Shown here piece after piece: positions 4,315 to 26,987 of a stretch of 26,987 nt of DNA. The stretch covers positions 1 through 26,987 of the forward strand of contig JAKLJP010000073.1 of NCBI GenBank assembly GCA_023151115.1, written 5' to 3'. Position 1 is the stretch's first letter, and each line of letters starts with the position of its first letter. The stretch comes from Anaerolineae bacterium (lineage in GTDB: Bacteria; Chloroflexota; Anaerolineae; 4572-78; J111). The notes beneath the pieces are model-generated. The model made no database searches. It was given only the letters and a program-made list of their open reading frames with translations, and was not told the origin of the DNA. Position numbers and translations under genes: made by a program.

Positions 4315-5068
4315 ATATTTTCTCAATCACCAGCAGATGAGACAAGCCAAACAAGCGCAAAGGAGTCTGCTCCAGGGTGTAAGTGAGGCGGCGCAGCAGC
4401 CGCCCTAGCGCCGGACGGTGAGCGACTACATTATCATAGCCAGGGTAAATTTGGGTAAGAGAAACTATTTTGACGGGCAGGCCGGCGACCAATTTCTTCA
4501 AATCACTGCCTGTGTAAGTGCGGACGTGCGGCGCTAACTTGTTACGCAGGGTGTTGGGCAGGTAATTGATGAGCGCCGTATTGCCAAAATGATATTTTCC
4601 CTGCCAATAATGGCCGTGCGTTTCAAAGGGATAAAGCCGGTTGGGGCAGAAAATAACTGCCCGCCCGCCTTTCTTGAGAACCCGCGCCATTTCGGCCACA
4701 GCCAGGGCGTCGTTTTGAACATGCTCAATCACCTCATGGCTTAGTACTAGATCGAAGCAGCCGGAGGGATAGGGCAGATATTCTCCGGCGGCCACATTGA
4801 CCAGCGGTGAATGAGCGTAGCTGTCGCTCACGCGTTCCGGCTCAATATCCAGCCCAACCACATGCGGTGTAAATTGGCACAGGGCGCGCACGTACATGCC
4901 CACTCCACATCCATCTACCAAAACCCAATTCGACGGCGATAGGCGCTCACCCGCCGCCGCCTGAATCATAGCCAGCCGCCGGTTTTGCCCGGCTCGCCAA
5001 ACCAGGCTGGGCACACCGCGCTCGTCGGCTTTGTTGAAGTGGGAAGCAGGTGTCATTGGCGTACCCAT
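4313..5068 (-). CDS. Class I SAM-dependent methyltransferase (Methyltransf_11 type)
   Basis: A 251-aa methyltransferase of unknown substrate. The SAM-binding motif I is VDGCGVG (51-57), an unusual DGCGVG in place of the common DxGCGxG; the acidic residue after strand 2 is Asp74 (GLDIE). The SHEVIEHV segment (110-117) and the RVLKKGG loop (129-135) are typical of this family. Asn/His/Tyr-rich residues around 150-165 could shape the substrate pocket. It lies 60 nt downstream of ubiE on the same strand and may be co-transcribed. No Shine-Dalgarno sequence precedes either candidate ATG (codons 1 or 5); instead a heptamer array runs straight into the start codon. The fold is certain, the substrate is not assignable from sequence. 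Confidence 0.87.
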   Translation of the reverse strand: MGTPMTPASHFNKADERGVPSLVWRAGQNRRLAMIQAAAGERLSPSNWVLVDGCGVGMYVRALCQFTPHVVGLDIEPERVSDSYAHSPLVNVAAGEYLPYPSGCFDLVLSHEVIEHVQNDALAVAEMARVLKKGGRAVIFCPNRLYPFETHGHYWQGKYHFGNTALINYLPNTLRNKLAPHVRTYTGSDLKKLVAGLPVKIVSLTQIYPGYDNVVAHRPALGRLLRRLTYTLEQTPLRLFGLSHLLVIEKI

Positions 5069-5123
5069 TTACGATTTTGGATTTACGATTTGGTTTGATA
5101 ATACTAATCGTAAACCAAAAATC
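5067..5123. repeat. AAATCGT heptamer array and imperfect palindrome
   Basis: On the minus strand the heptamers AAATCGT, AAATCCA, AAATCGT plus AAAT (5091-5067) run into the methyltransferase ATG. The 25-bp unit 5067-5091 matches 25871-25895 inside the RHS gene at 24 of 25 positions on the opposite strand. An inverted partner at 5106-5123 gives a stem (TTTACGATT 5082-5090 with AATCGTAAA 5106-5114) extending imperfectly to about 17 bp. Confidence 0.8.
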
Positions 5124-5128
5124 ATCTA

Positions 5129-5872
5129 TCACTTTACTCCCACATGCAAAGCAACCGTTCCAAACATCAGCATCGTATAACACACCTCCCGCAAGCCAGC
5201 TTTTTCCATTTCGGCCTTAAGTTCGTTGGGGCGTAGAAAAACTTCGGCGGAGGCGGGGAGATAGGCATAGGCGTCACGCTGGCCGCTGATCAGGCCGCCG
5301 ATAAAGGGGACAACCCGGTGGAAGTACAGCCGGAACAGCCGGCCAAACCAGGTGTCGGCCGGACGCGGAATTTCCAAAATCAACACCCGCCCGCCCGGTT
5401 TACAGACTCGCCGCTGCTCGGCCAGAGCCAAAGACACACTGGTAACATTACGCATCAAAAAGCCGCTGGCAACCGCATCAAAAGTGTTGTCGGCAAAGGG
5501 CAGGTGCAGCGTATCGGCCCCGCTCCAACTGAGGGAAAGCGTGACGCGAGGGGGCGAGGACGCGGGTGACCTCATCGCTTCGTCTCCTCGCCTCCTCGCT
5601 TCTCTCAACATCGGCAGGGTAAAATCCGCCCCGACAACCTGTTCCAAATGAGGGTGTTGGTGAAGCGCCTCGAAGGCAATATCACCCGTGCCGGTAGCAA
5701 TGTCGAGCAGTTTACCCTGGGGCGGCAGTTGTGCCTGTTGAATCAGAAGTTTGCGCCAGCGCCGGTCCTGCCCACCGGTCATAATCCGGTTCATGGTATC
5801 ATAGCGGTGAGCAATCCGGGCGAACATGGTGTTCACGTAGTGGTGTTTTTCGGTGGGTGAGTTAAATGACAT
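5129..5872 (-). CDS. ubiE: Demethylmenaquinone / 2-polyprenyl-benzoquinol C-methyltransferase UbiE/MenG
   Basis: Methylates demethylmenaquinone with SAM at the membrane in the last step of menaquinone synthesis. The 247 aa carry the family signatures: FARIAHRYDTMNRIM (17-31) with DRRWR (36-40), motif I LDIATGTGD (56-64), LP/FD...GF.MRNV (124-143), CKPGG, an ILE.PRP segment, and the Y.YLP.S block near the C-terminus. The usual GFGLRNV is GFLMRNV here. Residues about 91-109 form an extra Arg/Ser/Pro-rich loop between strands 3 and 4, encoded by a palindromic repeat (5546-5603). Its position at the surface loop after helix C may explain tolerance. A near-consensus promoter ends 6 nt before the ATG with no Shine-Dalgarno, so translation is probably leaderless. 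Genome context does not show other men genes; menaquinone is inferred rather than ubiquinone. Confidence 0.93.
   Translation of the reverse strand: MSFNSPTEKHHYVNTMFARIAHRYDTMNRIMTGGQDRRWRKLLIQQAQLPPQGKLLDIATGTGDIAFEALHQHPHLEQVVGADFTLPMLREARRRGDEAMRSPASSPPRVTLSLSWSGADTLHLPFADNTFDAVASGFLMRNVTSVSLALAEQRRVCKPGGRVLILEIPRPADTWFGRLFRLYFHRVVPFIGGLISGQRDAYAYLPASAEVFLRPNELKAEMEKAGLREVCYTMLMFGTVALHVGVK
5546..5603. repeat. Palindromic repeat embedded in frame in ubiE
   Basis: Left arm 5546-5560 and right arm 5585-5599 are inverted repeats matching at 14 of 15 positions around a 24-nt loop. The right side is made of octamers (TCGTCTCC, TCGCCTCC, TCGCTTCT; 5580-5603). A 19-nt stretch, 5586-5604, recurs at 26334-26352 in the RHS gene with one difference. 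In UbiE it encodes the non-conserved loop at residues about 91-109. Confidence 0.8.
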
Positions 5873-5878
5873 CGTGCA

Positions 5879-5907
5879 ATTATTAAGGGTTAGGCACTAA
5901 TTGTCAA
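5879..5907 (-). promoter_or_regulatory. Promoter of ubiE, predicted leaderless start
   Basis: On the minus strand TTGACA (5907-5902, full consensus) and AATAAT (5884-5879, 5 of 6) are 17 bp apart. Only 6 nt separate the -10 box from the ATG at 5872, placing the expected transcription start at or next to the A of the start codon. No Shine-Dalgarno is present, which agrees with a leaderless mRNA. Confidence 0.72.
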
Positions 5908-5915
5908 TTTTGGCA

Positions 5916-5943
5916 ATAAAAAAGCTCCCGTACTTCGGGAGCT
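5916..5943 (-). terminator. Intrinsic terminator after the small membrane protein gene
   Basis: On the minus strand a perfect 8-bp stem AGCTCCCG/CGGGAGCT (5943-5936 with 5930-5923), 5-nt loop, is followed by a run of six T with further T/A. It lies 22 bp past the stop of the 5966-6541 gene and just upstream of the ubiE promoter, insulating ubiE from read-through. Confidence 0.88.
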
Positions 5944-5965
5944 GTGGGTTTAACTAAGCCAAAAT

Positions 5966-6541
5966 TTATTGCTGGTGGCCTAACTTGGGATAAACCATTC
6001 CACCGATGGAGCTAAAAAGGCCGGATACCAACGAACCGATCACGCCATACACCAGCAAGGCCCCGGAGACGCGCCCGGCCAGGGCGATAATTTCGGGGGT
6101 GAGGCCGAAATTGACCAATTCGGCTAATTGATCGGGCGTGAACTGGCTGACCACATTTTGACCAAAGCTGCCCATAATAGCCCCAAAGGCGGCCATGGCC
6201 ATGGCCACGATACCCCCGATGACGCCCGCCCAAAATCCGGCCATCCAGCCAACTTTACCACCTTGATGGCTGTTCTGCACACTATCTCCGGCAAAGATAC
6301 CGGCCAGCAGCCCGGTGGTTAGCCAGACGACCAAAAAACCGGGCACAACCAGACAGGCCAAAAATTCAAAGGGTACCAGGCTAATCAACATTAAAAGTAA
6401 AATACCAAATCCGCCAATCAAGCCAGCCTTTAGGCTCGAAGTAACGGTTGAGCCAGTCGGTTGGCTTCTTTTGGCGATACGCTGGCGGCGGGGCGAAGAT
6501 GTAAATTCAGCTTGCCGTCGTCGTTGGGTTGTTGCCGTCAT
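5966..6541 (-). CDS. Conserved-type small membrane protein of unknown function
   Basis: A 191-aa protein. The ATG at 6541 follows GGAGGAAGG at an appropriate distance; a frame extension to 6643 would start inside the -35 box of the promoter and is rejected. Residues 1-37 are basic and Ser/Thr-rich (cytoplasmic). Hydrophobic segments follow at about 38-60, 60-85, 97-122 and 150-180, the last three rich in Gly/Ala, suggesting a four-helix Gly-zipper-like membrane protein. The loop at 128-148 (QFTPDQLAELVNFGLTPEI) is the only long polar stretch in the second half. It has its own promoter and terminator and no functional partners nearby. I do not recognise the family with certainty; similar Gly-rich DUF membrane proteins are common in Chloroflexota. 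Confidence 0.8.
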   Translation of the reverse strand: MTATTQRRRQAEFTSSPRRQRIAKRSQPTGSTVTSSLKAGLIGGFGILLLMLISLVPFEFLACLVVPGFLVVWLTTGLLAGIFAGDSVQNSHQGGKVGWMAGFWAGVIGGIVAMAMAAFGAIMGSFGQNVVSQFTPDQLAELVNFGLTPEIIALAGRVSGALLVYGVIGSLVSGLFSSIGGMVYPKLGHQQ

Positions 6542-6613
6542 TTTTACCTTCCTCCAAATGGTTTTGTTGCTCACTGTTCCCAGAGTGGGCAACCATTTAC
6601 TATCTAATTGGCG

Positions 6614-6643
6614 ATTATAGCATGATGGCTTACGGCTTGGCAA
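6614..6643 (-). promoter_or_regulatory. Promoter of the small membrane protein gene
   Basis: On the minus strand TTGCCA (6643-6638) and a perfect TATAAT (6619-6614) are separated by 18 bp. The expected start near 6607 gives a leader of about 65 nt to the ATG at 6541. Confidence 0.72.
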
Positions 6644-6686
6644 CTCTTGGTAGGCGATTTAGCCTACGCAATCCCTACGCAAATTT

Positions 6687-6787
6687 GTTCTAAAGCCAAT
6701 ACTTTTCAAATAACGTAGTTTAGCCCCTTGTGGGCGGGCACAAGGCCCTATACTACGGCCTTATTTGAAATGTATTGGTTCTAAAGC
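6687..6787. mobile_element. MITE-like hairpin element with 10-bp direct repeats (copy B of the shared-core repeat)
   Basis: The decamer GTTCTAAAGC occurs at 6687-6696 and again at 6778-6787, bracketing an 81-bp element (6697-6777) whose ends are 17-bp inverted repeats (CAATACNTTTCAAATAA type, 16 of 17). Inside, 6717-6741 is identical to 3510-3534 and TACGGCCTTA at 6754-6763 to 3536-3545. CGTAGT/ACTACG and CCTTGTG/CACAAGG form inner stems. The architecture is that of a non-autonomous insertion with target duplication. The outer arms differ from copy A, so the termini are not a conserved family end. Confidence 0.65.
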
Positions 6788-6790
6788 TGA

Positions 6791-6838
6791 GGTCAAATGA
6801 CCAGTAGTCAGCCTTATCTTGCTCCAACTACTGACTAC
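6791..6838. repeat. Inverted repeats of the GTAGTCAG word family
   Basis: A 12-bp palindrome GGTCAAATGACC (6791-6802) is followed by GTAGTCAG (6804-6811) and its inverse CTGACTAC (6831-6838) around a 19-nt loop. The words match the heptamer family at 3441-3489 and 3561-3568. Confidence 0.55.
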
Positions 6839-6851
6839 CGCTTCCTTACAG

Positions 6852-6880
6852 TTGCCCTGGTAGGATGATTGTGTTAATAT
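6852..6880 (+). promoter_or_regulatory. Weak candidate promoter for glgB
   Basis: TTGCCC (6852-6857) and TAATAT (6875-6880) each match 4 of 6 consensus positions with a 17-bp spacer. Downstream purine-rich sequence (AGGAG and AGAGG between about 6897 and 6914) provides ribosome binding for the ATG at 6917. Confidence 0.4.
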
Positions 6881-6916
6881 GATTTCATCCAAAATTAGGA
6901 GAAGGGTGAAGAGGAT

Positions 6917-8863
6917 ATGACCAAGCGAAAAACAGCTTCCGCTCAGGAAATGCCGCCCACCAATGCCGGCTCTTTTTTGACCGATTTTGATCTTTACCTC
7001 ATTGGGCAGGGTACTCACGAGCGGGCTTACGAAAAAATGGGCGCTCACCTGATTGAAATGAATGGGGAAAAAGGAGTCCATTTTGCCGTTTGGGCCCCTA
7101 ATGCCCGGCAAGTTTATCTGATGGGTGATTTTAACAATTGGCACGGCGAAAGTCATCCCATGCATTCCAGCGATAGCGGCATTTGGACTCTGTTTGTGCC
7201 GGGGCTGGCTGAGTATGCGGTCTATAAATACCGAGTGGTGAGTCAACGGGGCGAAAGTTTTGATAAAGCCGACCCTTATGGTTTTGCCATGGAGCAGCGG
7301 CCTAAAACCGGCTCGGTGGTGGCAGACCTTGACCGCTATCAGTGGGGCGACTCTGAGTGGGTCAACGGACGTACCCGCCATCAAGCGTTTGACCGACCCA
7401 TATCCATTTATGAAGTTCATCTGGGGTCGTGGCGTAAAGTTCCTGATGAGCAGTGGGGCACTCGTTATCTGAGCTATCGCGAATTGGCTGCCGAATTGAT
7501 CCCCTATGTCTCGGAACTGGGCTATACCCACATCGAGTTGCTGCCGATTACGGAGCATCCCTTAGATGCCTCGTGGGGCTATCAGGTGTTGGGTTTTTAT
7601 GCCCCCACCAGCCGCTTTGGCCCGCCCGAAGATTTGATGTATTTCATTGACCAATGCCACCAACACAATATCGGCGTTATTCTGGATTGGGTTCCCGCCC
7701 ACTTTCCCAAGGATGGCTCCGGCCTCAATTACTTTGATGGCACGCACCTCTACTCGCACGCCGACCCACGCCAGGGTGAACACCAGGACTGGGGGACGCT
7801 GATTTTTAATTATGGCCGGAATGAGGTGCGTGTTTTTCTCATCTCCAATGCCGTTTTCTGGTTGGAGAAGTATCACTTTGATGGGCTGCGGGTAGATGCC
7901 GTCGCCTCGATGCTTTATCTGGATTATTCGCGTGAAGAAGGAGAGTGGGTGCCCAATGAATACGGCGGCCGCGAGAATCTGGCCGCCGTCAGCTTTTTAC
8001 GCAAAACCAATGAAGTGGTGCATGGTCTCTTTCCCGGTGTGTTAACCATCGCCGAAGAGTCAACCGCCTGGCCGATGGTTTCCCGGCCTACCTATATGGG
8101 CGGCCTCGGTTTTAGCCTCAAATGGAACATGGGCTGGATGCACGACACCCTAAAATATATGAGCAAGGAGCCGATTTATCGCCGCTACCATCATAATGAT
8201 GTAACCTTCAGCTTGCTTTATGCCTTTACCGAAAATTTTGTACTGCCTCTCTCGCATGATGAGGTGGTGCATGGCAAAGGCTCGCTGCTCAACAAAATGT
8301 CGGGCGATGAATGGCAAAAGTTTGCCAATTTGCGGGCTTATTATGGCTTTATGTGGGGACACCCCGGCAAAAAGCTCTTGTTTATGGGCGGCGAGTTTGC
8401 CCAGTGGCAGGAATGGAATTTTAGCACCAGTTTAGAGTGGGCGGCCCTGACCGCGCCCACGCATCAGGGGGTGCAGCGTTTTGTTAAAGATTTGAACTAT
8501 CTTTACCAAAACGAGCCAGCCCTGTATGAAGATGATTTTGAGTGGACCGGTTTCACCTGGATTGACGCCAATGACAGCGACAACAGCGTCTTTTCATTCA
8601 TGCGCAACGCCAAATCACGCCCTGAGTTTGTGGTCGTTGTGACCAACTTTACCCCGGTGACCCGCCACAATTATCGGGTAGGGGTGCCCAAATCCGGCTA
8701 CTATCGAGAAATATTAAACAGCGACTCGGCCCATTACGGGGGGAGTAATATGGGGAACGACGGCGGCAGAACAACCGAAGACATCCCCTGGCACGGGCAT
8801 GCCCAATCGTTGTCTCTTACCTTGCCGCCTTTGGCGACCATTATGCTGAAATTGGCCGCATAA
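6917..8863 (+). CDS. glgB: 1,4-alpha-glucan branching enzyme GlgB
   Basis: Creates alpha-1,6 branches in glycogen in the cytoplasm by cutting alpha-1,4 chains and transferring them. At 648 aa it is a short GlgB with one N-terminal CBM48 (about 50-145, containing [20 protein letters not shown]) and no extra N1 domain. The GH13 core (about 160-530) shows YEVHLGSWR (165-173), DWVPAHFP (257-264), [17 protein letters not shown] with nucleophile Asp327, IAEES with acid Glu380, and [10 protein letters not shown] with Asp448. The C-terminal beta domain ends in [14 protein letters not shown]. No glgA, glgC or glgP lies adjacent, so it stands alone here. The function is secure. Confidence 0.97.
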
Positions 8864-8926
8864 AACCGCTGACTACCAGCCACAGCTATAAAATACCCTT
8901 GTGGTATCGCCGAAATATAGATACCC

Positions 8927-9029
8927 AGAAAAGTTTTTTCTAACGATTTTGGGCCGGGATTAGGAGATTGGGGGGATTTTTTCCTTTATTTTTCATCTCC
9001 AAATCCCCTAATCCGGCAGAAACTTTTCT
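8927..9029. repeat. Large imperfect palindrome between convergent glgB and apt
   Basis: Outer arms AGAAAAGTTT (8927-8936) and AAACTTTTCT (9020-9029) are perfect inverses. Inside, 8952-8977 pairs imperfectly with 9001-9018, including CCGGGATTAGG (8954-8964) against CCTAATCCGG (9007-9016). The loop is T-rich. It could act as a bidirectional terminator for the two convergent genes, but its length and two-part arms fit the repeat style of the other spacers better. Confidence 0.65.
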
Positions 9030-9067
9030 AAAGAACTATAATTCGTTTTTGCGGCCGTCAGTGGTCA

Positions 9068-9586
9068 TTACGTATCGTATTGGAGCAAAGAGAAAACGTT
9101 ATAACCTTTTAAGATATCGCGGCCATTCAAAAAGGTTAATTCGATGGCAAAGGCCAGGCCCACTACCTGACCGCCCAATTTTTCCACCAGGCCGCAAGTA
9201 GCTTTGGCGGTACCGCCGGTGGCCAGCAAGTCATCTACAATCAAAACTTTTTGGCCTTTTTCTATGGCATCTACATGTACTTCCAGGGTATTGGTACCGT
9301 ATTCCAGAGCATAACTTTCGGCAATGGTTGCGGCGGGTAATTTGCCCGGTTTCCGCACCGGCACAAAGCCCACGCCTAAATTGTAAGCTAAAGGAATACC
9401 AAAAATAAAGCCACGCGACTCAATGCCGACGACCAGATCTACCCCGGCATTTTGATACTGACCTGTCAGCCGATCAATACTCTCTTTGAGAGCAATGGGA
9501 TTCTTCAACAAGGTTGTGATATCGTAAAATAAAATGCCCGCAATAGGAAAATCAGGTACACTCCGAATAGTTGCCGCTAGGTCCAT
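9068..9586 (-). CDS. apt: Adenine phosphoribosyltransferase
   Basis: Salvages adenine by transferring it to PRPP to give AMP in the cytoplasm. The 172 aa match the family's usual size (170-180). Seen: the N-terminal [15 protein letters not shown] block, [10 protein letters not shown] (54-63), the RKPGKLP loop (78-84) and the PRPP-binding [14 protein letters not shown] (114-127). The ATG at 9586 is preferred because GGGGAG lies just upstream; a GTG five codons earlier (9601) would overlap that site. It is transcribed divergently from the lipoprotein gene from an extended -10 promoter (9628-9656). Confidence 0.97.
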
Positions 9587-9627
9587 TGAATTGCTCCCCA
9601 CTCCTAAAATTTAAGCTGCAAGTCCCC

Positions 9628-9656
9628 ATTCTAGCAGAACCCCCTAGAATCAGCAA
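9628..9656 (-). promoter_or_regulatory. Promoter of apt (extended -10)
   Basis: On the minus strand TAGAAT (9633-9628) is preceded by TGC, giving an extended -10 box; a poor -35 TTGCTG lies at 9656-9651 with a 17-bp spacer. The expected start near 9621 gives a 35-nt leader. Its -35 region overlaps that of the divergent lipoprotein promoter. Confidence 0.6.
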
Positions 9657-9666
9657 AGCGCTTTTA

Positions 9667-9675
9667 TGGTATAAT
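9667..9675 (+). promoter_or_regulatory. Extended -10 promoter of the solute-binding lipoprotein gene
   Basis: TGGTATAAT (9667-9675) is a perfect extended -10 element. The -35 region around 9647-9652 is poor, which extended -10 promoters tolerate. AGGA at 9701-9704 lies 6 nt before the ATG at 9711. Confidence 0.7.
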
Positions 9676-9710
9676 ACCTGTGGCATTTTTATTAAGGTTA
9701 AGGAATCTGT

Positions 9711-11069
9711 ATGAATTTTTTGCATAACAATTGGGCCGCTCGGTTAGGTTTACTTTTGATGAGTGTGACTATAACCCTTGTGGCAGGCTGTCAAGGCGTC
9801 ACTTTACCGGGTGAGATAAATCAAGCCCTGCCTACTGTTCAACCGACGACTATGGGTGCGCCTGTGACCACACCAACCTTAGTAATAACCCCCCTCATCA
9901 CGGCAACTCCTACCCCGGAAAATGAAGGCTTGACTCTCACCTTTTGGACTGTCGAAGCCATTTCACCCCAGGCTCCGGCGGAGTTGGGTACTTTTATGGC
10001 CGGCAGTTTACGCACCTTTGAGGCCAACAACCCTGATCTTAAAGTTAAGGTGCTGCTTAAAAAACCCAGCGGTAAAGGAGGAATTTTAGATTTCTTGAGA
10101 ACCGCCCGCGAGGCAGCTCCCACCATTTTACCCGATGTTGCAATTATGAACGCGACCGATCTTACTCAGGCCCAGGCTGACGGACTGCTGCAAACGCTGG
10201 ACAACCGCCTGGACCGCTCCATTGTCCAAGATTTGCTCCCCGCTGCCCGCAAAATGGGCACAGTTGACGAACGGTTGGTGGGCGTCCCCCTAAGCCTGGA
10301 AATGGAACATACGATTTATAATACCGCTACCTTCACCACCACGCCGATTTTGTGGAGCGATGTGCTAAGTAGTAACACACGCTATCTTTTTCCGGCCAAA
10401 GGGACCAACGGGCTGGTCAACGATGCGACGCTGGCGCAGTACTTTTCTGCTGAAGGCAGTTTTCATAACGATCAGGGTACCCTCCAAATTGATGATCGGG
10501 TTTTGCGGCGAGTTTTGACCTTCTATCAGCAGGCGCTTGAAATTGGGATTATTGACTCGACCATTTTAGATGCGGCAACCAGCGAAGAATTGTGGCCTAT
10601 CTATCTGGAAGATCAAGAGGGCTTGGCCCAGATAAGCGTGCGACAATATCTGACCGACCGGGAGGCTTTGACCAACAGCACCTTTACCGCTTTGCCCGTG
10701 CCTGATAAAGACTCCACACCGGTCACAATTTCGCACGGCTGGGCGCTGGTTTTGATTACCGATGATCTCGAGCGGCAAAGAGCTGCGCTGCGTTTGATTG
10801 AGTGGTTTTTATCAACCAGCAACAACGCCACCTGGAACAGTATCAACAAATCTATTCCCAGCCGGGATACGGCCTTTCAGCAGTTGGCCGGCAATGACCC
10901 TTATTGGGCTTTCCTGACCGAACAACTCAACACGGCTCAACCCCAGCCTGGCTTTGCCGGGTATGATCAACTGGGCCGCATTTTTCAACAGGCAGTTGAG
11001 CAAGTTCTGCGCGGTGAGGCGACCCCCCAGGAAGCCACTGCCACGGCTGTGGATGCGTTAACCCCATGA
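9711..11069 (+). CDS. Extracellular solute-binding lipoprotein (ABC family 1 / SBP_bac_8-like)
   Basis: A 452-aa lipoprotein that would capture a solute, probably a sugar or sugar-like ligand, outside the membrane. Residues 1-26 form a lipoprotein signal peptide ending in the lipobox LVAGC (23-27, lipidated Cys27). A Thr/Pro linker (about 39-70) precedes the binding domain, which begins LTLTFWTVEA and contains features of family 1 binding proteins: FEANNPDLKVKV, LPDVAIMNATDL, LVGVPLSLEMEHTIYN, and WALVLITDDLERQRAALRLIEWFLS near the hinge. The last residues are again Ala/Thr-rich. No permease or ATPase gene flanks it, so it is an orphan. It overlaps the glycerate kinase gene by the four bases ATGA and both are probably one operon. 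Ligand unknown. Confidence 0.87.
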   Translation: MNFLHNNWAARLGLLLMSVTITLVAGCQGVTLPGEINQALPTVQPTTMGAPVTTPTLVITPLITATPTPENEGLTLTFWTVEAISPQAPAELGTFMAGSLRTFEANNPDLKVKVLLKKPSGKGGILDFLRTAREAAPTILPDVAIMNATDLTQAQADGLLQTLDNRLDRSIVQDLLPAARKMGTVDERLVGVPLSLEMEHTIYNTATFTTTPILWSDVLSSNTRYLFPAKGTNGLVNDATLAQYFSAEGSFHNDQGTLQIDDRVLRRVLTFYQQALEIGIIDSTILDAATSEELWPIYLEDQEGLAQISVRQYLTDREALTNSTFTALPVPDKDSTPVTISHGWALVLITDDLERQRAALRLIEWFLSTSNNATWNSINKSIPSRDTAFQQLAGNDPYWAFLTEQLNTAQPQPGFAGYDQLGRIFQQAVEQVLRGEATPQEATATAVDALTP

Positions 11070-12406
11070 CCCTATCAACCTTTGAGGCTCGCCAGGTTGC
11101 CTGGCAAATGATTCAAGCAGCTTTAGCTGCCGTAGACCCGGCGGCGGCGGTCAAAAATTACTTTAACAACCAGATCGAACTGGTCAGCCAGATCAAATCA
11201 ACGCCTGGCCGAATTATCGTCGTTGGGGCAGGCAAGGCCAGCGCCCCCATGGCGGCTGCGGTGGCCGAAATCTTTGACAACAAAATTGCGGCCGGTCTTG
11301 TCATCGTCAAATACGGCTATACAACCACACCCTCCACCCTCCACCCTCCACCCTCCGCCCTCCGCATTGTTGAAGCCGGTCACCCCGTGCCGGATGAGGC
11401 AGGATTGCGGGCCGCCCAGGAGATCACTCGGCTTCTCCGCGGCGCCGCCGAGGATGATACCGTTCTCTGCCTGATTTCGGGCGGTGGTTCGGCCTTGCTT
11501 ACCCTGCCCGCCGAGCCGCTGACTTTGGCCGATCTCCAGGCCACCACCGAGGCGCTTTTAGCCGCCGGCGTCACGATCAATGGCGTCAATACCATTCGCA
11601 AGCACCTCTCTGCGGTCAAAGGGGGACAACTGGCCCGGCTGGCGGCCCCAGCACATGTCTATTCTCTGATTTTGTCGGATGTGGTCGGCGACCCGCTGGA
11701 AGTGATTGCCTCCGGCCCCACCGTGCCCGACCCAACCACCTTTGCCGACGCCTGGGCCATCATCGAACAATTTCAATTACAGGCCGCTCTGCCAGCCGCC
11801 GTCGTTGAGCGATTGCAGGCCGGACGCGCCGGCATGCTGCCCGACACGCCCAAACCCGGCGATCCTCTTTTTGAGCGTGTCCACAATGTCATCATCGGCA
11901 ACAACCGGCTGGCGGCTGAGGCTGCCGTCAAAGCGGCGGCAGCAGCGGGATTTGCCGGGCAGGTGTTGACCACGTTTATGGAAGGCGAAGCGCGAGAAGT
12001 GGGCCGGGTCGCGGCGGCGCTGGCTAAAGGGCTGGCTCGTGATGAAAGTTCACTGACCCGTCCGGCTTGCCTGGTTATGGGTGGAGAAACAACCGTAACG
12101 CTGCGGGGTAGGGGGAAGGGAGGCCGCAACCAGGAAATGACCCTGGCCGCGGCCCTGGCCCTGGCCGGCTGGCCGAATCTCCTCATCACCTGCTTTGGCA
12201 CCGACGGTAGCGACGGCCCCACCGACGCCGCCGGCGCTTTTGCCGACGGTCAAACCGTTGCCCGCGCGCAAGCCGCCGGTTTAGCCCCCGTCGAGTACCT
12301 GAGCCACAACGATGCCTATAATTTCTTTGCCGCCCTGGACGACCTGATTATTACCGGCCCTACCAACACCAATGTCAACGATTTAACTTTTATTTTGGCG
12401 TGGTGA
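11066..12406 (+). CDS. Glycerate 2-kinase, MOFRL type (glycerate kinase type II)
   Basis: Phosphorylates D-glycerate with ATP, in this family usually to 2-phosphoglycerate. The 446 aa show the two-domain family layout: VVGAGKASAPMA (52-63), AGHPVPDEAG (104-113), LISGGGSALL (136-145), NTIRKHLSAVKGGQLA, SDVVGDPLEVIASGPTVPDP, and the C-terminal MOFRL domain with GGETTVTLRGRGKGGRNQE and TDGSDGPTDAAGAF. Start and ATGA overlap with the lipoprotein imply translational coupling. Odd: residues about 86-99, just before the AGHPVPD motif, are encoded by five tandem CCCTCCA/G heptamers (11330-11364), an in-frame low-complexity insert. The next gene is a glycosyltransferase-like protein, hinting at glycerate-linked sugar chemistry. 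Function is confident; the pathway is open. Confidence 0.94.
   Translation: MTLSTFEARQVAWQMIQAALAAVDPAAAVKNYFNNQIELVSQIKSTPGRIIVVGAGKASAPMAAAVAEIFDNKIAAGLVIVKYGYTTTPSTLHPPPSALRIVEAGHPVPDEAGLRAAQEITRLLRGAAEDDTVLCLISGGGSALLTLPAEPLTLADLQATTEALLAAGVTINGVNTIRKHLSAVKGGQLARLAAPAHVYSLILSDVVGDPLEVIASGPTVPDPTTFADAWAIIEQFQLQAALPAAVVERLQAGRAGMLPDTPKPGDPLFERVHNVIIGNNRLAAEAAVKAAAAAGFAGQVLTTFMEGEAREVGRVAAALAKGLARDESSLTRPACLVMGGETTVTLRGRGKGGRNQEMTLAAALALAGWPNLLITCFGTDGSDGPTDAAGAFADGQTVARAQAAGLAPVEYLSHNDAYNFFAALDDLIITGPTNTNVNDLTFILAW
11330..11364. repeat. Five tandem heptamers (CCCTCCA/G) inside the glycerate kinase gene
   Basis: Units start at 11330, 11337, 11344, 11351 and 11358: three CCCTCCA then two CCCTCCG. 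The array is 35 bp, not a multiple of three, yet the frame is intact, so flanking bases must compensate. It encodes a Pro/Ser/Thr/Leu/His segment at residues about 89-99. Confidence 0.9.
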
Positions 12407-12429
12407 AATTAATGGGAGTTGCGCAGTTC

Positions 12430-12516
12430 ACATGTCATTTCGAGGCCGTAGGCCGAGAAATCCCAACCGTGCTACATAAGCGTTCAAGATTTCTCCCTTC
12501 GGTCGAAATGACATGT
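12430..12516. repeat. 87-bp palindromic element (CATTTCGAGGCC type)
   Basis: Perfect 14-bp terminal inverted repeats (12430-12443 with 12503-12516; ACATGTCATTTCGA) enclose a second perfect 8-bp stem, GAGAAATC/GATTTCTC (12455-12462, 12488-12495), and a small GGCC-GTA-GGCC hairpin (12444-12454). The 16-nt CGAGGCCGTAGGCCGA at 12441-12456 recurs at 15557-15572. It lies 24 bp after the glycerate kinase stop. Confidence 0.8.
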
Positions 12517-12523
12517 CTCAGTA

Positions 12524-12604
12524 GATCTAATTTTCGAGGAGTGAGGCACGCCCACGTGCCGAACACCGCCGCACGTGGGCGTGCTGGCTCCTCAAATTTG
12601 GATC
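12524..12604. repeat. 81-bp palindromic element with 14-bp perfect core stem
   Basis: GCACGCCCACGTGC (12546-12559) and its inverse (12571-12584) pair perfectly around an 11-nt loop. GAGGAG/CTCCTC (12536-12541, 12588-12593), AATTT/AAATT words and GATC at both ends extend the symmetry over the whole element. It sits 7 bp from the preceding palindrome; the two are unrelated in sequence. It could terminate transcription of the lipoprotein-kinase operon, but no T run follows. Confidence 0.75.
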
Positions 12605-12633
12605 CACTGTGTCGGGGTAGTTACCCTTTGGTC

Positions 12634-12664
12634 ATTTACAATTCACAATTCACTATTCACTATT
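12634..12664. repeat. ATTCACA/T heptamer array abutting a start codon
   Basis: ATTTACA, ATTCACA, ATTCACT, ATTCACT (12634-12661) continue as ATTAGC directly into the ATG at 12668. No Shine-Dalgarno sequence is present, so the array occupies the whole translation initiation region of the glycosyltransferase-like gene. Confidence 0.85.
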
Positions 12665-12667
12665 AGC

Positions 12668-13975
12668 ATGTATCACCCTATCTTGCGCCCGCGAGCGCAG
12701 CGTCAACTAAAAAATATCGGCGAAGCTGACCTGGTGATTGGCTTGCCCACTTATAAAAATGCTCAAGCCGCCGCGCATGTGGCTCAAACAGCGTTGGCGG
12801 GTGTGCGCCAGCATTACCCCCATTTCCGCACCGTCCTGATTAATGCCGATGCGGGTTTGGAAGCGACCACTCGACGGCTGGTTGCGGCTCAGGCCGGGAG
12901 CAACGGCTTTCGGGATACGGTCGTTACCGCCCGTTACGAGGGCTTGTTGGGAGCGGGCAGCGCTGCTGCCGCCATTTTCGACGCGGCGCTGGCTTTGGAT
13001 GCCAAAGCTATTATTATTTTGGACAGCCAGACTCGAAGTATTACCCCAAAATGGGTACCCGGTCTGGCCCATTTGATTTTAGAAGATAAAGCCGATTTGG
13101 TCACTGCTCGTTATCGTTGGCCTTTGTCCGACGGCGCGGTGAGCGATCTGATCGTCTATCCCCTTTTCCGTGCTCTGTGGGGCCGGAGTATGCGCCACCC
13201 GGCCGCCCCTGATTTTGCGCTCTCTCCCCGCTTGGCTGCTGCCGCGTTGGATGAGGATGTCTGGGAAACCGAAGCGGCCACCTTTGGCCTGCCGCCCTGG
13301 CTGAATACTTATGCGGTTCTTGGCCCATGGCGGGTGGCCCAGTCGGCCCTGGGTGAAAAATTATCCTTTCAGCCCCCGGCTCCTGCCAATCGAGCTGAAC
13401 AGAGAGCCGTCCGGCAGCACGCGGTCCAGCGGCAGGCGCAATTTCAAACAGTTATCAGCGCTATGCTGCGCCTGGTTTATGACTACCGGCAGCATTGGCT
13501 CAAGGTGAGTCAGTTTGGTTCCCTTTCAACCCTGACCGAATTTGTATCACCTGTCTCCTCCATCGAGACCAATGCAGAGTTTACAGCCGAAATAGACCCT
13601 CCCCCCCTCCTTGATCGGCTGGCCCTGGGCTGGATTGAATATCGCGCCTTGTGGCAGCAAGTCCTTACCCCGGCTAATCTGGGCGCAATTGAGGGCCTGG
13701 CCGTACTGCCGCCAGACCGCTTCTATTTTCCGGCGGACCTATGGGCGCGAATCATGTATGACTTTGCCGTTGTTTTTAACAAAGGCGATTGCGACCCGGT
13801 CCAGATTGTCAGCTCGCTCTGGCCGTTGTACCAGGGCCGCCTGGCGGCTTTCAGCCAGGAGGTGGCTGGCCTATCCGTAGTCGGCTATGAAGGGACAGTG
13901 GCCGCCCAGGCGGTTGAGTTTGAAGAAACGCGGCCTTATTTGGAAGACCGCTGGCAGGCTTATCAACCCGTTTAA
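12668..13975 (+). CDS. GT-A glycosyltransferase-like protein, divergent (mannosylglycerate/glucosylphosphoglycerate synthase-like)
   Basis: A 435-aa protein. Start at 12668 is chosen because the upstream extension translates only repeat sequence. The N-terminal Rossmann-like half shows DLVIGLPTYKNA (21-32), TVLINADAG, and ILDSQTRSITPKWV (117-130), which lines up with the DxD-bearing strand of GT2/GT78/GT81-type enzymes, for instance the YDADITSFGPDWI segment I recall from Rhodothermus mannosylglycerate synthase. The metal-binding second Asp is Gln121 here (DSQ). A YPLFRALWGRSMRHPAAPDFALS segment (164-186) matches the acceptor region of related proteins, whose usual GGDF is APDF. The alpha-helical C-terminal half (RLVYDYRQHWLKV, FNKGDCDPVQIVSSLWPLYQGR) also matches the family. 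It follows glycerate kinase and precedes a phosphohexomutase. Whether it is catalytically active is doubtful. Confidence 0.75.
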   Translation: MYHPILRPRAQRQLKNIGEADLVIGLPTYKNAQAAAHVAQTALAGVRQHYPHFRTVLINADAGLEATTRRLVAAQAGSNGFRDTVVTARYEGLLGAGSAAAAIFDAALALDAKAIIILDSQTRSITPKWVPGLAHLILEDKADLVTARYRWPLSDGAVSDLIVYPLFRALWGRSMRHPAAPDFALSPRLAAAALDEDVWETEAATFGLPPWLNTYAVLGPWRVAQSALGEKLSFQPPAPANRAEQRAVRQHAVQRQAQFQTVISAMLRLVYDYRQHWLKVSQFGSLSTLTEFVSPVSSIETNAEFTAEIDPPPLLDRLALGWIEYRALWQQVLTPANLGAIEGLAVLPPDRFYFPADLWARIMYDFAVVFNKGDCDPVQIVSSLWPLYQGRLAAFSQEVAGLSVVGYEGTVAAQAVEFEETRPYLEDRWQAYQPV

Positions 13976-14061
13976 AACGTAAGGCATAAAACGTAATGTC
14001 TTAAGTATGGAAAGCTATTTGTCAACAGATCATTACGTTTTACGTTTTACGCCTGACAAAT
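13974..14061. repeat. AAAACGT / TTTTACG heptamer arrays forming a hairpin
   Basis: AAAACGT, AAGGCAT, AAAACGT (13974-13994) begin within the glycosyltransferase stop codon. CATTACG, TTTTACG, TTTTACG (14031-14051) face it, giving a perfect 12-bp stem (13987-13998 with 14031-14042). An overlapping 8-bp inverted repeat ATTTGTCA/TGACAAAT (14017-14024, 14054-14061) can form an alternative hairpin. Confidence 0.8.
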
Positions 14062-14096
14062 AATCAAACCTTACCTTTAACTCAGGAGTTTACCTC

Positions 14097-15527: not shown

Positions 15528-15551
15528 GCGAATTTGCCACTACTCAGGCAT

Positions 15552-15578
15552 CATTGCGAGGCCGTAGGCCGAAACAAT
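15552..15578 (+). repeat. Half copy of the CATTTCGAGGCC-type palindrome
   Basis: CATTGCGAGGCCGTAGGCCG and the following AAACAATC match the left half of 12430-12516 (16 nt identical, 15557-15572). No full right arm follows, only a short ATTGTTTC word at 15639-15646 that can pair with GAAACAAT (15571-15578), so the element is decayed or truncated. Confidence 0.65.
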
Positions 15579-15623
15579 CCTCAGATTGCAATCCTGAACT
15601 CAAAGCAAAATTTACTGACGGCC

Positions 15624-15684
15624 AACGCGCCAACCGCAATTGTTTCTCTGAATAAAGGGAGCAAAAGCGGTGAGCGCGTTTTTT
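15624..15684 (+). terminator. Nested-stem intrinsic terminator after the phosphohexomutase gene
   Basis: AACGCGC (15624-15630) pairs with GCGCGTT (15674-15680); inside, ACCGC (15633-15637) pairs with GCGGT (15667-15671) and a weaker inner stem closes the loop. Six T residues follow (15679-15684). The stem is long and multi-part for a terminator but the T tail and position 97 nt after the stop fit the role. Confidence 0.75.
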
Positions 15685-15735
15685 GTTTAGCTCACTTTTC
15701 ATATTCAACTTGCCATTTTTTCAAGAGGCCCCTTT

Positions 15736-22683: not shown

Positions 22684-22731
22684 GTTCATTTCATCCCTCA
22701 TTCTTCATCCTTTCTTTCAGGAGTGTCACTT

Positions 22732-25700
22732 ATGCCTATCATCTCTAAACGCCTGACCCGTTGGCTGAATGTTTTGCTAATTATTTCAATGACTGGGGGA
22801 TTATTACCACCAACACAATCAGTTTCAGCGGCATCAGCCCCAGAGAATTTAACTGCCAGACATTTTAACAACCAAGCTATTGGTGCCTCTAAACTCTTTG
22901 ATAACGGTGATAACGATGAGGCTCATCCAACAACTGAGGTGGCAAATAAAACAGTTATTAATTCTCATGATATCAAGGTGAGCAGAGTTAATGCTGTAGC
23001 TGCCAGGACATACCCTTTATCTTTCGATTTTTTATTATCAAATGATCGCAAGTTAGAAGGATGGTCGCTTGCGACCCAAGAAATTAAGACCGAGGATGGC
23101 AATGATGACTCTCTGAGAATACCCCTCAATAGGCCGGCGGCACTGGCCGGAGAGTTGGTATTCAATGGCACTTTTAACACGGATATCTCGGGATGGTCTA
23201 ATTCAAATCCGCCTTGTTGTGGTAGCCCTAGCGGAATTATCTGGGATGCAGGTAGATTGAAACAATATTGGGATGCTTCCTGGGAATTTGGATGGTCCTG
23301 GACAACGGTTCAAGTGCCGGTAGATGGCATCTATCGTTTGACGGTCGATTACGCTCGATACCCAGGAGGTACTTGTGAAAGTAGTTGGCCCTCGCCCTGG
23401 GTTACCCTCGGTGGAATTGCCCGATTATCTTGGGGTCAATCTGAAGAAGGTTTGAAATCGGTTGATCTAGCGTTGTCTGCTGGTAGCTATCAACTGGCAT
23501 TGGGGACCGCTATGATCAACAGTGCTGGTTGTATTTTTGGCTATTGGGATAATGTGAGTTTACGCTTAGCAAAAGTTCTTCCCCTTGACCAAACCTATTC
23601 TCCTGAGGAGTGCCCTATTTGTAACAACAGGGAGATCAATAACTTCATTGGTGGCCCTATCAATACGGCTAGTGGTAACTACAACTACGAAACCAGCGAT
23701 CTCTCTATCCCCAGCATCGGCCACCCGTTAAACTTTGAACGTAGTTACAATAGCGCCACTATCACCGGCACTGCCGTCTACTCCCGACCCCTGGGCTACG
23801 GCTGGACGCACAACTACGACCTCAACCTCACTTTCCCCGATGCGCCGGGCGGCGAGGAAGGCATGGTCATCCTCAAAGCGCCGCACGGCTCGCGGCTGCG
23901 CTTTACCGAGGTCAGCAGCGGGACTTACGAACCGTATCCCGGCGTGTGGGCGGCGCTGACGCGGACGCTGGTGACCACCAACACTTATGTTTATACCATC
24001 ACTACCGCCAACCAGGAACAATTTGCCTTCAACAATGCCGGTTATTTGACGAGCCAGACCGATCCTCAAGGGAATGAGACCAGCTTGACCCGTACCAACG
24101 GCATCACCCTGACCCGCGTAACCGACACAGCCAGCGGGCGCTACCTCAACTTTGGCTACGACAGCTTGGGCCGGCTCCTCACCCTGACCGACCACACCAG
24201 CCGCAGCGTCACTTACGGCTATGATAGCAACAACGACCTGGTCTCGGTGCGCGACAGCCGCGGCTTTACCTGGACTTACACCTACTCGGGTACAACCCAC
24301 TTATTGCGCCAGGTCAGAGATCCCGAAAACAAAGTATTGGAGGATACGAGCTACACCCTAGTCAACGGCGAATACAAGGCTACCCTGCAAACGGATGGGG
24401 CAGGCCGGACCATGGCCCAGATTGAGTATCTGAGCGACACCCAGCGGCGGGTGACGGAGGCCGGAAAAGTCATCACCGATACCTACGACGCCGGCAACTT
24501 GCTAATCAGTCAGACCGATGCCCTGGGTCGCGTCCAGAATTATATAGTAGATGACAATTTCAACCGGGCCGCTGTCACTGATATTAGACAACAAACCACC
24601 GCCTACGACCGCACCCCCATGGGTTTGACGACGGCCATTACCAACGCCCTCGGCCAGACGACGACGCTGCAATACGACACGGGCACGAATAACCTCTCCG
24701 CCGTGATCGAGGACGACGGCACCCTGACCGATTACACTTATGACAGCAGCAACAACCTGCGCCAGATTGCCACGGTTTCTGGGACCACTTATTTTGATTA
24801 CAACAGCTTCGCCCAGGTCATCTCGACCACCAACCGGCGCGGCTACCGGACGCAGTTTGGCTATGATCAAATCGGCAACCTGACCGTGATTACCGACGCC
24901 AAATTGCAAACCACCCACTTCACCTATGACCCCCAGGGCCGGGTCGAGACCGTAACCAACGCTCGCGGTATGGTCACGCGTTACCAATACGACGCCGGCG
25001 ACAACATTCGCTTTGTGACCGAAAATTACCAAACGACCCCCTGCCCGCCCCATGAGTGCAACCTGACCACCGAGTTCCAGTACGACAACGCCGGGCGGCT
25101 GGTCTGGATCATTGACCCGGCCGGCCGCCGCACCAAGCGGGAGTACGACAACGGCGGTCTCTTGGTCAAGATCATTACCAATTACCAGGATGGCGTCTTT
25201 CATAACAGCGCCCCCGACGAGGACGTGACCATCCGCTATGGTTATGACAGTTCGGGCCGCCTGCAAAGCCTGTTCGAGACCCTGGCGGCGGGCGCGGAAC
25301 GGGAAACCCGGCTGGTGTATGACGGGTTGAGCCGGGTCCAGCAGGTCATTTTCAACTACGGCGGCGGTTCGGCCGAGTTGACCACCAGCTACAGTTATCA
25401 AGACAACACCGTCCCGGCCCTCGTCAGCGTGACCGACCCGACCGGCCTGGTGACCCGCACCGAGTACGATGCCCTGGGCCGGTTGGCCAAACGGATTGAC
25501 AACTACCGCGAGACAAGCTGCCCGGCGACCGAGTGCAACCTGGCCACCCGCTACGAGTACGACGACGTGGGCAACCTCAAACGGCTGTACGACCCGGCCA
25601 ACCTGCGCACCGAGTACGAGTACGACCCCCTGCACCGCCTGATCGGGGTGACTGAGAACTACACCGGCACGGGGGTCTACAGTGGGATTGTGGATGAAAA

Positions 25701-26987
25701 TATCAAAACCAGCTACCGCTACGACAACGAAGGCAACTTGCTCCAAGTCTCCAATCTCCAATCTCCAATCTCCATCTTCCGCTACGACGAACTCAACCGG
25801 CTGGACCAGGTGGAAAACGCCCTCGGCCACCTGAGCGACTATGATTACGACGGGGCGGGCAATCTTCGCCAAATCGTAAATCCAAAATCGCAAATCATCA
25901 ATTACCAGTATGACCTGGTTAACCGGCTGACCTATATTGACTACCCCAACCCCGACGCCGACGTGACCTTTGGCTACGACGCCCTGGGCCGGCGCACCTC
26001 GATGAGCGACGGGGTGGGCAATAGTGTCTACATCTATGATGATTTGGATCGACTCATCGGCCTGACCCAACCGGCGGTCGGCGGTCCGTCGGCGGCGGTC
26101 GGCTACGGCTACGACGCCCGCGGCAACCGCACCCGCCTGACTTACCCCGACGGCAAAACCGTTGTCTACGGTTACGATAACGCCGACCGTATCACCACCA
26201 TCAGCCCCGATTGGGATACGGGCAGTTATAACTACCAATACCTCAACCACCGCCTGATCACCACGACCAACCCGGCAGGCGTAGCGACAACCTACAACTA
26301 CGACACCGCCAATCGCCTGACCGGCCTGACTCACCTCGCCTCCTCGCCTCTCTCCTCCTACACCTATGCCTTAGACGCCACCGGCAACGTCCGCACCGTC
26401 ACCGAAACCCAATCCCTCGTCCTGCCTGCCGGAACCTACCAGGAAAGCGGTGGCCAGGTGGTGATGGAGAGTGAAAACGGGTCAAGAGTGGCCGGGACAA
26501 CTCACCAATGGCTGACAGCCACCACCCAAAGCGGCTACACCGGCACGGCTTACTTACAGACCTCCCTCGACGTTGACCAACTGTACCAGACGAGCCAAAT
26601 CACCAGCAGCCCGCGAGCGGAATATTCCATCCAATTCACCACGCCGGGTACGTATACGGTTTGGCTGCGGGGTTATCCGGCCAACGCCGCGGGCGACTCG
26701 GTGTATGTGGGTACGAAAAACCAAATCGTTGGGGTCACGGGGTTTGCGCCGGGTCAGTGGGGTTGGGCGAAGCTCAACTTGAGCAGCGGCGCAGCAGCGA
26801 CCCTACCCCTAACCACAACCGGCCTGGTTACTGTTGGCCTGTGGATGCGCGAAGATGGCTTGCAGATTGATCGGGTTTTGTTGACCACTGATACGAACTA
26901 TATTCCGACCGGCTTTGGCCCGGCGGAGAGCACGCGCCTCATCAATCAGACCACGCTCTCAACGACGATCACCCGGACGATTGTTTA
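22732..26987 (+). CDS. Secreted RHS/YD-repeat protein with carbohydrate-binding-like domains, 3' end beyond the window
   Basis: The frame is open for 1418 codons from the ATG at 22732 (AGGAG 10 nt upstream) to the window end, with no stop seen. Residues 1-33 are a signal peptide (cut near SVSA) whose RLTRWL motif matches the preceding giant protein. Residues about 92-283 form a jelly-roll/CBM-like domain with Cys pairs. A DUF6531-like entry (FIGGPINTASGNYNYE, about 304-345) starts the RHS shell. About 457-1236 are YD repeats (YDxxGxL, YDALGR, YDNxG). About 1234-1400 are a GH115_C-like domain (MESENGSRVAGT, YTVWLRGYPANAAGD, GLWMREDGLQIDRVLL). Such shells usually encapsulate a C-terminal toxin or effector, here out of view. 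Residues encoded by 22732-23640 use A/T-rich codons, unlike the rest. Three in-frame micro-repeats lie in the shell at 25741, 25871 and 26334. Confidence 0.93.
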   Translation, partial: MPIISKRLTRWLNVLLIISMTGGLLPPTQSVSAASAPENLTARHFNNQAIGASKLFDNGDNDEAHPTTEVANKTVINSHDIKVSRVNAVAARTYPLSFDFLLSNDRKLEGWSLATQEIKTEDGNDDSLRIPLNRPAALAGELVFNGTFNTDISGWSNSNPPCCGSPSGIIWDAGRLKQYWDASWEFGWSWTTVQVPVDGIYRLTVDYARYPGGTCESSWPSPWVTLGGIARLSWGQSEEGLKSVDLALSAGSYQLALGTAMINSAGCIFGYWDNVSLRLAKVLPLDQTYSPEECPICNNREINNFIGGPINTASGNYNYETSDLSIPSIGHPLNFERSYNSATITGTAVYSRPLGYGWTHNYDLNLTFPDAPGGEEGMVILKAPHGSRLRFTEVSSGTYEPYPGVWAALTRTLVTTNTYVYTITTANQEQFAFNNAGYLTSQTDPQGNETSLTRTNGITLTRVTDTASGRYLNFGYDSLGRLLTLTDHTSRSVTYGYDSNNDLVSVRDSRGFTWTYTYSGTTHLLRQVRDPENKVLEDTSYTLVNGEYKATLQTDGAGRTMAQIEYLSDTQRRVTEAGKVITDTYDAGNLLISQTDALGRVQNYIVDDNFNRAAVTDIRQQTTAYDRTPMGLTTAITNALGQTTTLQYDTGTNNLSAVIEDDGTLTDYTYDSSNNLRQIATVSGTTYFDYNSFAQVISTTNRRGYRTQFGYDQIGNLTVITDAKLQTTHFTYDPQGRVETVTNARGMVTRYQYDAGDNIRFVTENYQTTPCPPHECNLTTEFQYDNAGRLVWIIDPAGRRTKREYDNGGLLVKIITNYQDGVFHNSAPDEDVTIRYGYDSSGRLQSLFETLAAGAERETRLVYDGLSRVQQVIFNYGGGSAELTTSYSYQDNTVPALVSVTDPTGLVTRTEYDALGRLAKRIDNYRETSCPATECNLATRYEYDDVGNLKRLYDPANLRTEYEYDPLHRLIGVTENYTGTGVYSGIVDENIKTSYRYDNEGNLLQVSNLQSPISIFRYDELNRLDQVENALGHLSDYDYDGAGNLRQIVNPKSQIINYQYDLVNRLTYIDYPNPDADVTFGYDALGRRTSMSDGVGNSVYIYDDLDRLIGLTQPAVGGPSAAVGYGYDARGNRTRLTYPDGKTVVYGYDNADRITTISPDWDTGSYNYQYLNHRLITTTNPAGVATTYNYDTANRLTGLTHLASSPLSSYTYALDATGNVRTVTETQSLVLPAGTYQESGGQVVMESENGSRVAGTTHQWLTATTQSGYTGTAYLQTSLDVDQLYQTSQITSSPRAEYSIQFTTPGTYTVWLRGYPANAAGDSVYVGTKNQIVGVTGFAPGQWGWAKLNLSSGAAATLPLTTTGLVTVGLWMREDGLQIDRVLLTTDTNYIPTGFGPAESTRLINQTTLSTTITRTIV
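25741..25775. repeat. TCTCCAA heptamer array inside the RHS gene
   Basis: A CTCCAAG unit is followed by TCTCCAA at 25748, 25755 and 25762 and TCTCCAT at 25769. It encodes LLQVSNLQSPIS, replacing the usual YD-repeat loop between GNL and FRYDELNRL. Confidence 0.9.
25871..25898. repeat. AAATCGT heptamer array inside the RHS gene
   Basis: AAATCGT, AAATCCA, AAATCGC, AAATCAT occupy 25871-25898 and encode part of QIVNPKSQIINYQYD. The first 25 nt match the spacer array at 5067-5091 (opposite strand) at 24 of 25 positions. Confidence 0.92.
26334..26352. repeat. CCTCGCCTCCTCGC octamer repeat inside the RHS gene
   Basis: Nineteen bases match 5586-5604 in ubiE with one difference, in the same plus-strand orientation although ubiE is on the minus strand. 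It encodes LASSPLSS between two YD-repeat strands. Confidence 0.8.

Follow-up and report, generated by a model that had tools for sequence, protein, structure and literature searches.

The two heptamer arrays of the 26,987-nt Anaerolineae contig JAKLJP010000073.1 (hereafter the window), one on the minus strand at 5067-5091 beside a methyltransferase gene and the other on the plus strand at 25871-25895 within an RHS gene, are nothing exceptional within an extensive population of heptamer repeats. Direct alignment confirms the match between them that an earlier note on this DNA had reported: 24 of 25 ungapped positions are identical on opposite strands, and the runner-up alignment among offsets of -8 to +8 scores 14. 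With up to two mismatches, the window contains AAATCNNAAATCNNAAATC six times, whereas shuffled sequence would yield 0.01 occurrences, so that the match is not due to chance, and the flanks of the two copies, as displayed, do not resemble each other.

The extent of this population was assessed in related genomes. The window belongs to the Anaerolineae according to its homologs and to a syntenic locus (L001) in the nearest relative in the collection, H5_CFX5 (G001), which is 89-93% identical to the window across the principal blocks aligned within 101-15526 and was used as a stand-in for the window's own genome. G001 holds 335 exact three-unit AAATC windows (none in the reversed control) and 513 with one mismatch (nine in the control). 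The array type is therefore found hundreds of times, and not only at the two sites, a restriction for which the earlier note had allowed. Any match was present in 23 of 61 genomes (G001 and 60 relatives), with high exact counts in six of them: G017 (501), G001, G027 (246), G003 (150), G002 (138) and G005 (114). Perfect period-7 arrays of any sequence reach 21.7 per 100 kb in G001 and 7.2 in G002, compared with 1.2 in 12 other Anaerolineae loci, and every period but 7 and 14 stays at or below 4.4 per 100 kb in G001, where 59 of 276 spacers carry an array. A period-7 micro-repeat population was thereby shown to exist genome-wide in some Anaerolineae. Period 8 is the next commonest in G001 once 14 is set aside, and some period-8 hairpins exist.

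The shared order of unit variants in the two window arrays had been taken as a sign that the whole array was copied. This explanation of their resemblance is rejected, as equally good matches are commonplace in G001: when distinct arrays were paired at random, 116 of 400 pairs agreed at 24 or more of 25 positions (47 arrays, taken from stretches partly selected around arrays). The unit successions GT-CA and CA-GT each occur nine times in G001 arrays, against 8.7 expected from independent draws; CA-TA (7) and TA-CA (4) are in excess over an expectation of 1.6, and GT-TA is in deficit (4 versus 7.9). Thus, of the proposal that such micro-arrays are dispersed as units, the dispersal stands, given the hundreds of copies in G001 and the existence of empty sites, but the copying of entire arrays is not supported.

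Many arrays, about half of them in G001 and G027, form one arm of a small hairpin whose complementary heptamers belong to a single family. When an inverted partner was sought within 80 bp at a score of at least 10 (a hairpin can be counted once for each of its arms), it was found for 49% of 110 arrays in a contiguous 360 kb of G001, compared with 4% when the flanks of other arrays were used, and for 38% of 45 arrays in G002 (control, 4%). In G027, at a score of at least 11 and in contigs picked for AAATC arrays, the figures are 48% of 67 and 5.5%. The hairpins also show polarity. Among 106 of them (the contiguous stretch of G001 supplied 39, G002 supplied 14, and regions selected around arrays supplied 53), the 5' arm has more G than C in 89, more C than G in seven and a tie in ten, and it is purine-rich in 84. 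Both the length of the arms and the loops are highly variable. About 20 heptamer families can be distinguished, and within a family the orientation toward the loop hardly changes: 24:0 for GTGATGC, 7:0 for both AAGGATG and GGAGATT, and 9:1 for AGTAGTC. For GATTTAC, 14 hairpins agree, the one row called as opposite (G001 482844) looks misassigned by eye, and a genuine case of opposite orientation is L183:9804, which had been filed as a family of its own. GATTT precedes AAATC in all 17 neighboring opposite-strand pairs among the exact AAATC matches listed. G027, in which a 1.9-kb window gene that 12 of 15 genomes possess has no match, shows the same polarity (22 to 2 among 25 hairpins), and its GATTTAC, GGAGATT, AAGGATG and GGCGAAT hairpins are oriented as in G001. 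Pairing in G001 and G027, polarity and a bias toward intergenic positions are shown properties of these repeats.

One such hairpin, of the GATTTAC family, separates the UbiE-like and methyltransferase genes of the window. Only one of its arms had been noticed earlier; the degenerate inverted partner lies on the far side of the loop. For the minus strand of 5066-5128, the computed folding energy is -17.6 kcal/mol (z -5.1), a value matched by none of 200 shuffles. The array was said to abut the start codon of the methyltransferase, and it does lie close upstream, but the first ATG (5066-5068) of the open reading frame (ORF) of 251 amino acids is created by the final array unit (AAATG), for which H5_CFX5 has AAATTGG. 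Since 22 of 27 aligned homologs have their predicted start at the next ATG (MTPAS..), 12 nt further in, some 10 nt most probably separate the end of the array from the true start downstream of it. Comparison of this junction across 14 relatives bears out the expectation that empty sites exist. A hairpin of the window's kind is present in G001 (L001), whereas in five relatives (L003, L004, L005, L006 and L010) the two genes overlap as ATGA without an insert, and in L012 they apparently overlap as GTGA. Spacers without repeats of this kind occur as well, short in L008 and L009 and long in L007 and L011. Three further relatives carry other repeats, i.e., AGCAGGGG octamers in L002 (G002; 9955-9985), GTGTTGC-type heptamers in L014 (6300-6400) and a GGGGAATC-type repeat of 7-8 bp in L017 (9870-9960). 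In G001, AATGA stands on either side of the insert, and in the window AGTGA and AATGA take these places, an arrangement that preserves both stop and start. Four different fillings of one junction are striking, and a hotspot was considered, but the share of G001 spacers that carry an array may suffice as a base rate.

Changes at fixed sites extend to other loci. Five heptamer spacers could be compared between the window and G001: those at 3464, 5085 and about 6800 hold the same family in rearranged form, that at 13999 holds another family, and that at 12634 is kept. Between G001 and G002, 31 of 75 array sites are syntenic; G002 is arrayless at 24 of these, loosely similar at four and different at three. 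One of these three lies inside an ORF, with GCAGGTA units in G001 and GAAGGTT units in G002 at the same codons, the two sequences being 72% identical over 370 aligned bases with a 3-bp gap; it is a change of unit at almost fixed length. Copy-number differences were observed between species. It was shown, then, that arrays are present in some lineages and not in others, that they lengthen or shorten by whole heptamers, and that their units change while site and length stay fixed.

The second noted array is translated inside a YD repeat, as had been claimed. By our own count, this array and a second one in the same gene each lie within one 19-residue YD repeat, and no opposite-strand AAATC match was found near 25870-25896. 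RHS genes of G001 contain three further arrays (two in L129 and one in L135), and an RHS gene of G003 (L132) contains one of a different family; no counterpart of the window's RHS part was found in the 360-kb G001 stretch. Translated copies had been called unusual, a view that finds no support. The AAATCNN translation is present in eight of the 120 listed RHS homologs (3837 found), the window's own P0122 included, and lies in a YD repeat in six of these eight, P0173 and P0240 carrying it outside. The same 120 contain words of the NLQSPIS type (2), the INNEQLTI type (2) and the QQSAVS type (1), and shuffled proteins yielded at most 0.05 on average. In P0125, which is 80% identical to the window protein, the AATCTCC array (25741-25774) is absent with one extra residue, and the position of the AAATCNN array is occupied, gap-free, by a different sequence; P0135 has the INNEQLTI translation, also gap-free, at the position of the AATCTCC array. 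These homologs are known as proteins alone, from which we infer arrays in their DNA. At the codons concerned, other RHS genes would carry related translated arrays, and lengths would differ slightly or not at all.

The reading that we favor, with a probability of roughly 0.55, is that of a period-7 micro-repeat population which turns over by slippage and homogenization and spreads by ectopic copying without target-site duplication. Arrays would be altered by replication slippage or unequal exchange, and their units homogenized within a site; families would reach new sites via template switching or other ectopic copying of short hairpin DNA, a step that would leave target sites unduplicated. 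Persistence would be expected where harm is small, e.g., at gene junctions and in variable codons of YD repeats; in the latter, versions that shift the frame or contain a stop would be lost. At some junctions a role in transcript processing or translation may exist. The indel of whole units and the exchange of units in a coding sequence support slippage and homogenization, and the recurrence of identical words at numerous sites calls for ectopic copying.

Several points weigh against this reading. Slippage alone cannot place one heptamer at many unlinked sites, and ectopic copying was not observed; its sole hint comes from GTGATGC hairpins with common loops (loop pairs scoring at least 10 amount to 2.6% of 386 within families and to none of 1500 between families), and most loops within a family are unrelated. 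Pairing is weak in G003 (12% of 33 arrays versus 6.8%) and G005 (10% of 10 versus 2.8%) and is not above control in two Planktothrix plasmid stretches (33% of 9 versus 31%); G017, the genome richest in arrays, lies outside the pairing test. An arm resembles its own partner more than other arms of its family in only 0.57 of comparisons (86 hairpins; 0.73 for GTGATGC, 0.68 for GGAGATT and 0.35 for GATAGAG), and neither fold-back templating nor arm-to-arm co-evolution is accordingly borne out in general. The AATGA pair around the G001 methyltransferase insert resembles an insertion footprint, yet no such signal emerges over the 106 hairpins. Finally, single arrays in the contiguous stretches of G001 and G002 occur in tandem and divergent spacers but in none of 63 cases in convergent ones, about seven being expected there at random on the home-made gene calls used for the spacer analysis.

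As a separate observation, two GGCGAAT hairpins of G001 (G001:C1:341925 and 514279) have an identical loop and similar longer flanks, which suggests that some heptamer hairpins are carried along by a larger repeat.

Neutral residence does not account for the convergent deficit, which slightly lowers the odds of slippage with ectopic copying and raises those of a regulatory role, in which the hairpins or arrays would act as functional or binding sites, e.g., in translation or at transcript ends at junctions. We regard such a role as unlikely on the whole. It would accommodate the fixed polarity and the intergenic bias of the hairpins (38 of 39 in G001 and 12 of 14 in G002), which often lie 14-60 nt upstream of a start or right after a stop (counted without a distance control). 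Translational control was moreover proposed for TAACTGA repeats (MacGregor, 2015; PMC4679880). The C-rich strand of single arrays is the sense strand in 45 cases against 20 overall, in 29 of 43 arrays of tandem spacers (p 0.03) and in 16 of 22 within ORFs. A conserved function is hard to reconcile with the 24 of 31 syntenic sites without an array in G002 and with the exchange of units at fixed sites, and G001 hairpins are distributed over tandem, divergent and convergent spacers (26, 9 and 3) much as random placement would have it (0.66, 0.21 and 0.12), although 11 of 12 lie in tandem spacers in G002, where 0.62 would be expected.

Less probable again is transposase-driven movement of palindromic elements, in which the heptamer arms would be the recognition sequence. 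Hairpin shape, the occurrence of families at many loci, the common loops of several GTGATGC copies and sites at which one genome has an array and a second has none would all suit miniature inverted-repeat transposable elements (MITEs) or repetitive extragenic palindromic (REP) sequences, as would AATGA on both sides of the G001 insert. This single pair is nevertheless at odds with the 106 hairpins, for which the mean longest word shared by the flanks is 3.92, compared with 3.93 for re-paired flanks, i.e., there is no MITE-like signal of target-site duplication, and the wide variation of arm lengths and loops also speaks against such elements. REP sequences and bacterial interspersed mosaic elements, which are associated with REP-associated tyrosine transposases (RAYTs), are small intergenic high-copy hairpins, to our knowledge without period-7 arms. 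Unlike in the REP/RAYT system, Y1 transposases do not track arrays here: across ten genomes, matches were found in the array-rich ones (three each in G001 and G002, nine in G003, two in G005, four in G017 and one in G027) and in genomes without an exact array (three in G008 and six in G012), other transposase families not having been searched. Reverse transcriptase showed no clear link across 20 genomes, being present in five of six array-rich genomes (one each in G001, G002 and G027, two each in G005 and G017, none in G003) and in seven of 14 array-poor ones (0 to 3 matches each), and Ku was found in none of the 20. A purely local origin, by in-place slippage from a chance heptamer with mutational bias yielding the common families, would fit the whole-heptamer length changes and the concerted unit change at a fixed position but is very improbable in view of the recurrence of one heptamer and its variants in the 335 exact G001 windows and of the complementary arrays in the flanks.

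A bolder proposal, which we put forward only tentatively and consider rather unlikely, is that heptamer words with a fixed loop orientation, common to separate array-rich Anaerolineae and in part to cyanobacterial plasmids, move without target duplication or any transposase found so far. If true, this would point to a hitherto undescribed way of copying DNA in steps of seven bases, e.g., hairpin-primed, polymerase-linked template switching, that would write arrays into spacers and overwrite codons in phase. The states of a site in related genomes (empty, filled or holding another heptamer) make the heptamer excess studiable at one site, paired arms and fixed polarity constrain any mechanism, and the coding examples show that such DNA is able to alter the sequence of protein loops while leaving their length almost or entirely as it was.

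Mazel in 1990 and Elhai in 2008 are said to have described cyanobacterial short tandemly repeated repetitive (STRR) sequences and small dispersed repeats as short tandem heptamers without a gene of their own. STRR had been suggested as a precedent, and aptly, in that tandem, dispersed, mainly intergenic heptamers are found here too, albeit in an Anaerolineae rather than a cyanobacterial host; we know of no paired-arm polarity in STRR. A closer parallel is provided by stem P6b in the tRNA-Leu(UAA) intron of Nostoc, which is built of Class I (TDNGATT) or Class II (NNTGAGT) heptanucleotides, changes in size by repeat units and has had one class replaced by the other several times at one site (PMC4476775). 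Both are heptamer-built hairpins, and Class I fits TACGATT, a rotation of the 5'-arm unit GATTTAC. P6b is nevertheless one locus in a group I intron of cyanobacteria, whereas the present set is genome-wide, comprises the full range of families in spacers and coding sequence, and is found in Chloroflexota; an Rfam search of the window at gathering thresholds gave no match, group I intron included. The direct TAACTGA repeats that MacGregor described in Beggiatoaceae, Cyanobacteria and Bacteroidetes are likewise dispersed heptamer arrays, mainly intergenic, often near starts, at times within ORFs and patchy across phyla. They consist of one direct unit, and just one of 170 sets is inverted, in contrast to AAATCNN, the many families and the paired arms seen here; TCAGTTA turns up in a single hairpin of G001 (L171). 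That bacteria have heptamer repeats in excess had been pointed out before, together with no more than a suggestion as to the mechanism (Mrazek et al., 2007, as cited in PMC4679880). No report of heptamer hairpins in Chloroflexota was found among the titles and abstracts listed, subscription papers aside. By analogy, we read the population as a probable Chloroflexota counterpart of the cyanobacterial heptamer repeats.

Among plasmid records, GATTTAC hairpins occur in four (three Planktothrix and one Bacteroides) and GGAGATT hairpins in 13 (nine Nostoc), GTGATGC matches are weak and scattered (four), and AGTAGTC has none. Reversed controls gave one GATTTAC record (Stanieria) and none for AGTAGTC; none were run for GGAGATT and GTGATGC. 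This cross-phylum comparison is supportive, for two families only. By eye, Planktothrix agardhii plasmids carry GATTTAC, GATTTGG and GATTGGG units in the same orientation. On one of them, a near-pure GATTTAC array of about 200 bp (L234, 5847-6050) lies among DISARM-annotated genes (drmC, drmA).

Table 1. Heptamer arrays, hairpins and associated genes of the window
Feature	Coordinates	Strand	Remarks
Heptamer hairpin, AGTAGTC family	3441..3489	.	z -5.6; same family, rearranged, in G001
Class I S-adenosylmethionine methyltransferase ORF, from second in-frame ATG	4313..5056	-	Pfam PF08241
Heptamer hairpin, GATTTAC family, between UbiE-like and methyltransferase genes	5071..5125	-	55 bp
3' arm of this hairpin	5071-5090	-	inside the noted array 5067-5091
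5' arm of this hairpin	5106-5125	-	degenerate
UbiE-like methyltransferase ORF	5129..5872	-	PF01209; ATGA stop/start overlap in five insert-free relatives
Coding heptamer array, CACCCTC	11328..11363	+	three units shorter in G001 (21 bp, in frame)
Heptamer array, ATTCACA	12634..12664	+	retained in G001 with point differences
Heptamer hairpin, AAAACGT units	13974..14051	.	z -3.75; G001 spacer has GTGATGC units
RHS repeat protein ORF	22723..26985	+	PF05593, PF20148; open at window end
Translated array in RHS gene, AATCTCC family	25741..25774	+	NLQSPIS
Translated AAATCNN array in RHS/YD repeat	25870..25896	+	GNLRQIVNPKSQIINYQYD; unpaired

The window also contains other repeats. A palindromic MITE-like element at 12517-12609 (CAGTAGATC...GGATCCACTG) has about 16 matches in the 360 kb of G001, where the corresponding site is empty and one copy is flanked by GATACT twice. 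A second dispersed palindrome at 12431-12524 (GTCATTTCGAGG...CGAAATGAC) has at least six further matches in the same stretch. The spacers 3499-3676 and 6728-6770 have the segment GTTTAGCCCCTTGTGGGCGGGCAC in common, which is missing in G001 at both places, and an additional palindrome lies within 3579-3676.

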